Shown piece after piece: positions 58,843 through 60,329 of a stretch of DNA of 64,000 nt. The translations under genes and the position numbers were made by a program. Numbering within the stretch: position 1 is the first letter of the stretch; each line of letters opens with the position of its first letter. This stretch comes from Methanolinea mesophila (lineage in GTDB: Archaea; Halobacteriota; Methanomicrobia; Methanomicrobiales; Methanospirillaceae): positions 992,001 through 1,056,000 of the forward strand of contig NZ_JAGGKR010000001.1 of the NCBI RefSeq assembly GCF_017873855.1. The letters run 5' to 3'. The notes beneath the pieces are model-generated. The model saw only the letters and a list, made by a program, of their open reading frames with translations, was not told the DNA's origin and made no database searches.

Positions 58843-58904
58843 AAAACGGTATCTCGCAAACCTTTATTTCCGTTCCTGTTGAATTTATACAGCACATCGT
58901 CGTC

Positions 58905-58953
58905 ACTGACTGATGAGTGATGAGGGAGAACGCTACTCCTGAATGAGGTGAGT
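58905..58953 (+). promoter_or_regulatory. Box C/D-like (kink-turn candidate) leader of rpl7ae
   Basis: The leader has two overlapping box C-like strings (ctgatga at 58910-58916, gtgatga at 58917-58923) and one box D-like ctga (58939-58942), with ggag and ctcc between them able to pair. The gggag...ctcc stem and an outer cact/ggtg pairing would bury the gaggtgag ribosome-binding site (58945-58952). Because L7Ae binds box C/D kink-turns, this could be an autoregulatory site. Base pairing is only approximate by hand. Confidence 0.45.
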
Positions 58954-58954
58954 T

Positions 58955-59323
58955 ATGGCTAAATCGTACATGAAGTTTGAAGTCCCGGAAGAGCTCCAGA
59001 ACAAGGCGCTCGAAGCACTGGAGATCGCCCGAGACACCGGCAAGATCAAGAAAGGGGCCAACGAGGCGACGAAAGCAATAGAGAGAAGCATCGCGACTCT
59101 GGTCCTGATCGGCGGAGACGTGGAACCCGAAGAGATCGTGATGCACCTTCCCCCGCTCTGCGAAGAAAAGAAGATCCCCTACGTGTTTATCAGCAAGCAG
59201 AACGACATCGGGACCGCGAGCGGGCTTGACGTGGGCTCCACTGCTGCAGCCGTCGTCAAACCGGGCAAGGCAAAAGAAATTATCGACGAGCTGGCAAAGC
59301 AGCTCTCCGACCTGAGAGCGTGA
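58955..59323 (+). CDS. rpl7ae: Large-subunit ribosomal protein L7Ae
   Basis: 122 residues. L7Ae/L30e/S12e/Gadd45 fold: [40 protein letters not shown] (RNA-binding [12 protein letters not shown]-type signature with NEATK), [20 protein letters not shown]. Binds kink-turns in rRNA, box C/D and H/ACA sRNPs and RNase P. Start ATG 58955 with gaggtgag. First of the conserved L7Ae-S28e-L24e-NDK run. Confidence 0.97.
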
Positions 59324-59331
59324 AGTAGCCC

Positions 59332-59541
59332 ATGGCAGACGAAGCAGTGCCGGCAGAAGTGATCGAGGTCATCGGGTCCACCGGGATGCACGGCGAGGCG
59401 ATGCAGGTGAAATGCCGGATCCTTGACGGGATCAACAAGGGCAGGATCATCACCCGGAACACCGTGGGACCCATCCGGGAAGGCGATATCCTGATGCTGA
59501 TCGAGACCGAGCGTGAGGCGAAGAAGCTCTCACGGAGGTGA
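59332..59541 (+). CDS. rps28e: Small-subunit ribosomal protein S28e
   Basis: 69 residues; [40 protein letters not shown] and the C-terminal [18 protein letters not shown] are diagnostic for S28e (OB fold). 8 bp after rpl7ae. Confidence 0.97.
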
Positions 59542-59547
59542 AGCAAG

Positions 59548-59739
59548 ATGGTGGAGACCAAGATTTGCAGTTTCTGCGGAGAGCCTGTCGAACCCGGCAC
59601 GGGCAAAATGTATGTGCGCCGGGACGGCACCACGTATTATTTCTGCAGCAGCAAGTGCCAGAACAACCAGCGCCTGGGCCGCGCCCCGCGCCGGGTGGCC
59701 TGGACGAAGGCCGGAAGGAAGGCGCTCGGGAAGGAGTGA
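59548..59739 (+). CDS. rpl24e: Large-subunit ribosomal protein L24e
   Basis: 63 residues with the zinc-finger [20 protein letters not shown] and [15 protein letters not shown]-x2-C and C-x3-C pairs. The rest is typical ([15 protein letters not shown]). 6 bp after rps28e. Confidence 0.97.
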
Positions 59740-59745
59740 TCCGGG

Positions 59746-60201
59746 ATGGAGATGGATCGCACCTTCGTCATGGTGAAACCTGACGGTGTCGCCCGCGGGC
59801 TGGTGGGAGATATCGTCTCCCGGTTCGAGTCCAAAGGCCTGAAACTGGTGGCGGCGAAACTCGAGAAGCTCCCGGAGAAGCGGGTGCGGGAACAGTACCA
59901 GGAGCACCTGGAAAAGCCGTTCTATCCCTCGCTCCAGCACTACATCACCAGCGGTCCCTGCTTCCTTATGGTATGGGAGGGCAGGAACGTAGTGAAAGTG
60001 GCCCGGGCGATCATCGGGGCTACCAACCCGGCCGAAGCGGCCGCGGGGACCATCCGGGGAGATCTGGCAATGGATATCGGACGGAACGTGGTGCACGGTT
60101 CCGACTCCCCGGAAAGCGCGAAGCGCGAGATCGGGATTCACTTCGCGGGGACCGAGCTGGTCGCCTACAAGCGGATCGACGAGCCGGTCCTTTACGAGTG
60201 A
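59746..60201 (+). CDS. ndk: Nucleoside diphosphate kinase
   Basis: 151 residues; interconverts NDPs and NTPs. [20 protein letters not shown] at the N-terminus, RDxF-like [20 protein letters not shown] where the His near residue 115 is the phosphorylated catalytic residue. 6 bp after rpl24e. In many Euryarchaeota infB follows; here the operon ends at a T-rich tail (60226-60257). Confidence 0.96.
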
Positions 60202-60329
60202 TCGCGTCTGAAAACCGCTCCCCGGTTTTCATTTTTTTATTATTGTTTTTTTTGTTTGGATGTATTCTTGTCTATTGCCTCCGGCCCCAAAAAAACCAGG
60301 GTTTATCCTGCGAATCCTATTTCGAGACT

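Follow-up and report, generated by a model that had tools for sequence, protein, structure and literature searches.

Two tandem kink-turns in the rpl7ae leader of Methanolinea mesophila and other Methanomicrobiales, a probable L7Ae-responsive switch

The rpl7ae locus and its promoter

The window, that is, the whole 64,000-nt stretch of the Methanolinea mesophila genome analysed here, contains the gene rpl7ae (58955-59323, on the forward strand like all features described below), which encodes an L7Ae protein of 122 amino acids (Pfam Ribosomal_L7Ae, E = 8.9e-25). It is followed after 8 nt by rps28e (59332-59541; Ribosomal_S28e, E = 1.2e-31), after another 6 nt by rpl24e (59548-59739; Ribosomal_L24e, E = 2.2e-25) and, again after 6 nt, by ndk (59746-60201; NDK, E = 2e-53), behind which a terminator-like hairpin with a T-run is located at 60209. 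These four genes presumably constitute one operon ending at ndk. When aligned to a solved L7Ae, the encoded protein possesses the residues that read kink-turns (N36, E37, K40 and R44) and keeps the arrangement N-E-x-x-K-x-x-x-R; the corresponding residues of the A. fulgidus protein (N33, E34, K37 and R41) have the same spacing (PMC6298567).

The leader of rpl7ae is 112 nt long, from the stop of the upstream reading frame (58842) to the start codon (58955). A putative BRE/TATA-like promoter element, CAAACCTTTATTT, lies at 58857-58869, and its TTTAW box is conserved, being found 43-47 nt upstream of the outer helix of the element described below in 85 of 104 leaders (in the window, the element lies 46 nt downstream of the start of TTTATT). 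From the usual archaeal TATA spacing, transcription is expected to start at about 58888-58893. The first-pass annotation, which proposed an autoregulatory kink-turn for L7Ae at this place, had named a transcription start downstream of box C as one circumstance that would speak against it; instead, the conserved TATA-like box places the likely start ahead of both copies of box C.

Anatomy of the leader element

The element spans 58909-58951 in the 5' leader, close to the start codon at 58955. The motifs reported earlier are all present, namely ctgatga (58910-58916), gtgatga (58917-58923), ggag (58925-58928), ctcc (58936-58939) and ctga (58939-58942), and element and start together read ACU-GAU-GA-GU-GAU-GA-G-GGAG-AACGCUA-CUCC-U-GA-AU-GA-GGU-GAGUU-AUG. 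They had been taken for one kink-turn. Using the published geometry (a 3-nt bulge, G.A and A.G pairs and an NC helix; definitions as in PMC6298567), we likewise arrive at a kink-turn fold, except that the two 'box C' copies appear to form two of them in tandem with the same polarity, an outer K1 and an inner K2. Each consists of a three-nucleotide bulge followed by tandem G.A/A.G pairs and is flanked by helices, and both register and pairing are conserved.

In K1, the 5' strand of the C-helix, ACU (58909-58911), pairs with GGU (58947-58949), a helix of only 3 bp in which 97.6% of the cells are paired across 55 aligned sequences. The bulged strand that follows (58912-58916) is the first 'box C', composed of the bulge GAU (58912-58914) and GA (58915-58916), and CUGAUGA is invariant in this alignment. 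Next comes a helix of 2 bp, GU (58917-58918) with AU (58943-58944), that is common to both kink-turns and acts as the NC helix of K1 and the C helix of K2. The bulged strand of K2 (58919-58923; bulge GAU at 58919-58921, GA at 58922-58923) is the second 'box C', matching NATGA in 124 of 127 leaders. The NC helix of K2, G-GGAG/CUCC-U (58924-58940), shows compensatory changes at three pairs and encloses the apical loop AACGCUA (58929-58935), while the non-bulged GA of K2 (58941-58942), invariant in the alignment, corresponds to the earlier 'box D'. This ctga is thus present as described, except that its C (58939) pairs with 58925 within the hairpin stem. A second GA (58945-58946), located within the Shine-Dalgarno sequence, serves as partner to the first box C.

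The ribosome-binding site therefore overlaps the kink-turn itself, as the Shine-Dalgarno GAGGUGA (58945-58951), which is complementary to the 16S 3' end (GGATCACCTCCT, an anti-Shine-Dalgarno sequence found once in the genome), supplies with its core (58945-58949) the non-bulged GA and the C-helix strand GGU of K1. An outer cact/ggtg pairing, proposed earlier to cover this site, can be drawn in the window sequence but is not conserved; we rejected it owing to inconsistent pairing past the third C-helix pair in the leader alignment, the conserved outer helix being ACU with GGU. The signature of ion-induced folding (3b = C or 3n = G, with -1b:-1n = C:G) is absent from both kink-turns of the window, where 3b:3n is G.U in K1 and K2 alike and -1b:-1n is U:G or U:A.

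In the window, the full pattern, CTGATGANNNATGA-N8-30-GANNGAGG, has one match, compared with none in 100 dinucleotide shuffles. Scanning the 2.66 Mb genome with it gave a single match (reversed control pattern: 0), and a covariance model search pointed to the rpl7ae leader as the sole site, so that neither method detected further tandem elements in this genome.

Conservation among Methanomicrobiales

Leaders were taken from L7Ae orthologues in named genome contigs and in whole genomes of the family and the order, yielding 127 distinct Methanomicrobiales leaders (Methanolinea, Methanoregula, Methanospirillum, Methanofollis, Methanoculleus, Methanogenium, Methanomicrobium, Methanocorpusculum, Methanocalculus and others). 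The leader comparison suggested by the first-pass annotation bears out its motif, since the frame GATGA-NN-NATGA...GA-NN-GA-RG is kept in 124 of the 127, from six families, and the GGAG/CUCC stem shows compensatory changes. Among the exceptions, L174 has one changed bulge base. The others, L147 and L077 (= L149) of family f2, have a degenerate first CUGAUGA with the Shine-Dalgarno side and the second copy intact, and offer natural tests of K1. A stricter scan that also requires the pairs is passed by 115 leaders; 10 of the 12 that fail are of Methanoculleus type with an interrupted K2 stem.

The UGAUGA strands are near-invariant, whereas the columns of the upstream flank are free (0.04-0.7 bits), as is the sequence of the apical loop. 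Although not required by the search, the C and U of CUGAUGA never vary, and the 2-nt spacing between CUGAUGA and the second copy is near-invariant, with the matching 2-nt spacing of the two 3' GA dinucleotides also kept. The distance between the GA strands of K2 ranges from 13 to 102 nt among relatives. Large insertions in the apical loop, some with stems of their own, are found in Methanogenium, Methanomicrobium and relatives (L043, L044, L048, L049, L052-L056 and L191), and even at spans of up to 102 nt both halves of the tandem stay intact. A loop motif, ACGC or UACGCUA (58929-58935 in the window), is shared by 50 of 124 leaders belonging to several families; about 6 would be expected in shuffled loops, without correction for relatedness. 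A covariance model built on the order (R1) recovers the element in nearly every sampled Methanomicrobiales genome; the exception among those listed is G221, and a member of its genus group, G222, carries the element in a Methanomicrobium-type leader with a very long loop.

These data also bear on readings without any L7Ae switch, in which the conserved stretch would be a DNA site bound by a regulator, a guide RNA of box C/D type that overlaps with the leader, or a short uORF (AUGAGUGAUGAGGGA...). Each GAUGA does contain an AUG, and two of three sub-threshold Rfam matches are box C/D sRNAs. However, the lengths of the element fall in all three frames (44/36/26), hence no upstream reading frame is kept between species, and a translated uORF or leader peptide is excluded. 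In box C/D sRNAs, guide regions of about 12 nt lie between the C and D (and C' and D') boxes; here the C boxes are only 2 nt apart, leaving no guide, and we rejected this assignment. The large loop insertions and the compensatory changes point to a function as RNA, and the likely promoter precedes the element. An Rfam search, likewise proposed at first pass, assigned no family at the gathering score or at a relaxed E-value, the three matches just mentioned being below threshold. Taken as a group, these explanations are highly improbable.

Pairing, covariation and register

Pairing and covariation were counted in the alignment of 55 sequences. The tandem structure is paired in 92.4% of cells, compared with 40-54% for slid registers, and changes on both sides of a pair affect 27 cells, compared with 8.2 in shuffles. 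For K1 and the middle helix alone, 94.2% of cells are paired versus 24-55% when slid, but the shuffle control on this part is weak (43 of 500 shuffles reach its covariation score) because the variation is confined to one clade. The inner pair of the middle helix is U-A in 45 sequences, C-G in 9 and U.G in 1; the change from U-A to C-G took place in Methanocorpusculaceae, with the U.G intermediate preserved in L073, and the outer pair consists of G.U and non-standard pairs. Changes in the C-helix of K1 are confined to one strand, which is what would be seen if the Shine-Dalgarno sequence held its 3' strand constant, and for this reason the two-sided covariation of K1 comes from a single clade, Methanocorpusculaceae.

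An alternative reading is that only the inner K2 is an L7Ae site and that the first CUGAUGA is kept for other purposes, e.g. ribosome standby, stability of the mRNA 5' end or a weak duplex. K2 by itself indeed shows strong two-sided covariation, and the two f2 leaders with a degenerate first copy keep the rest. It is harder to reconcile with the near-invariance of CUGAUGA and of its exact 2-nt spacing, with the kept spacing of the 3' GA dinucleotides, with the constant pairing of the two bases preceding the bulge (C and U) to the Shine-Dalgarno sequence, and with the same double frame in 10 other families; we consider it unlikely.

The tandem register, and no other, is conserved in Methanomicrobiales. 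In the 115 leaders, the tandem register gives 100% pairing at the -1 and -2 pairs of K1 and at 4b:4n of K2. Joining the first bulged strand to the first GA (register b1+n1) gives 0% at both the -2 pair and 4b:4n, and joining the second bulged strand to the second GA (b2+n2) gives 9% and 0%, so that the alternative registers were rejected (0-9% versus 100%). Given that the scan itself demanded the -1 pair of K1, the middle pair and the K2 stem, only the -2 values and the lack of pairing in the other registers count as independent in this test. The same figures weigh against a single sliding kink-turn in register b1+n1, with the second copy placed in the loop or serving as an alternative. In its favour, the A. 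fulgidus element seems to have been drawn in this register, and its assignment in the literature (3b:3n A:U, -1b:-1n C:A, GAU bulge) agrees with b1+n1 when applied to the Archaeoglobus-like leader L269, but with b1+n1 pairing at 0% in the order this reading is very improbable. In a tandem reading, the first bulged strand of L269 would instead pair up with the second GA, giving C-G and C-G, which we put forward as a hypothesis and not as a correction of the printed assignment.

Distribution outside the order

The loop had been suggested to be specific for a lineage if conserved in Methanomicrobiales, yet tandem leaders are also possessed by other classes of the phylum. R1 yields weak matches there, most of which are l7ae leaders. 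A grammar scan identified the tandem in 24 of 51 leaders from outside the order (a set partly brought in by R1 itself, so that this share is not a prevalence), distributed over 10 family labels (f7, f8, f9, f11, f14, f15, f16, f19, f22 and f30), against 3 of 15,300 shuffles (0.02%). Every leader of f8 and f14 has it, and f12 contains near misses. In f9 (Archaeoglobus-like), K2 is a k-loop without a stem; names such as Archaeoglobus-like or Haloarchaea-like are attached to these labels by inference. The C-helix of K1 is often only 1-3 bp long outside the order, and C-G mostly takes the place of U.G at the -1 pair. No tandem element was detected in the scanned leaders of the Haloarchaea-like f13, f17, f21, f23 and f27. 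In f10 and f24 (L252, L254, L255, L257, L259, L260 and L263), no recognisable kink-turn precedes L7Ae, and the L7Ae feedback may have been lost or may be different in these two groups.

Folding and proposed regulation

Without protein, RNAalifold predicts only a 4-bp stem (-4.1 kcal/mol). Single-sequence folding predicts the Shine-Dalgarno sequence to be about half-paired (0.58 in the window leader), which makes a fully open ON state less certain. An arm upstream of CUGAUGA (58885-58908) is complementary to the bulged strands of the kink-turns and might form a competing ON hairpin, its duplex having a mean of -7.3 to -9 kcal/mol in four of five groups, where shuffled arms reach -3 to -5. An arm-swap test revealed no covariation for this hairpin, which is absent in Methanocorpusculaceae, and the complementarity in the window leader is not significant (P 0.53). 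As a lead only, the predicted duplexes hint at possible pairing between this arm and the bulged strands in certain lineages.

Judging from the sequence features and the comparative evidence, we regard the leader as a likely (probability roughly 0.8) L7Ae-responsive OFF switch for rpl7ae-rps28e-rpl24e-ndk, built from two tandem kink-turns of the same polarity. L7Ae would thereby very probably shut off its own production, as the first-pass annotation had supposed; leader conservation and covariation lend good support to this idea, and the regulatory effect is extrapolated from results published for other archaea. The trigger would be free L7Ae in excess of its rRNA, RNase P RNA and guide-RNA targets. 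Excess L7Ae would bind K2 and K1, and its binding would fold the otherwise weak leader and hide the Shine-Dalgarno sequence, leading to less translation of rpl7ae and probably of the closely spaced downstream genes as well. Two sites might make the repression steeper or stronger than one. For this particular leader we infer L7Ae binding, repression and the presence of two proteins per RNA.

More tentatively, and at somewhat less than even odds, the natural tandem may bind two L7Ae cooperatively, be ancestral to much of the phylum (Methanomicrobia, Archaeoglobus-like and Methanosarcina-like groups) and include the single kink-turn of A. fulgidus as one part. If true, cooperative binding of two L7Ae would make the threshold steeper than with a single kink-turn. 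The arrangement raises a testable question, namely whether L7Ae is cooperative in sensing its excess, and would also represent a compact two-site switch for synthetic circuits, where L7Ae is already used.

Comparison with known systems

In Sulfolobus, L7Ae acts on a kink-turn in the leader of its own mRNA to repress it (Daume et al. 2017, PMC5539422), and reporters with M. acetivorans and A. fulgidus leaders showed particularly strong repression by L7Ae (PMC5539422). The A. fulgidus leader alone is unstructured; L7Ae folds it, and the ribosome-binding site is protected (Huang et al. 2019, PMC6298567). The element described here shares with the published archaeal leaders the gene, the position before the start codon, the presumed ligand L7Ae, the GAU-type bulge with tandem G.A pairs and the location of the Shine-Dalgarno sequence in the C-helix. 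It differs in having two kink-turns in tandem with a common 2-bp helix, whereas each of the six drawings in print has a single one. Moreover, Daume et al. (PMC5539422) reported highly conserved leaders for Sulfolobales alone, while leader conservation in Methanomicrobiales is also very high. We found no report of a natural tandem kink-turn in l7ae leaders in the literature, the supplementary alignment of Daume et al. aside.

Two further systems are related. The kink-turn of box C/D sRNAs has the same RUGAUGA and CUGA strands, an L7Ae-type binding motif, but the leader element is distinguished by the lack of guide regions, C boxes only 2 nt apart, both D-side strands after one hairpin and a GGAG/CUCC stem instead of a short stem II. 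In yeast, L30e, a ribosomal protein of the L7Ae family, controls its own message by a kink-turn (PMC6298567); this pre-mRNA/mRNA element is eukaryotic, single and also involved in the control of splicing, unlike the tandem leader.

Kink-turns in L7Ae leaders and their wide occurrence are thus already known, and it is the conserved double arrangement that appears to be new. With it, a known ribosomal-protein feedback loop gains a new RNA form, a conserved element without a matching Rfam family, in which two kink-turns have a 2-bp helix in common and the outer one is made from the ribosome-binding site itself.
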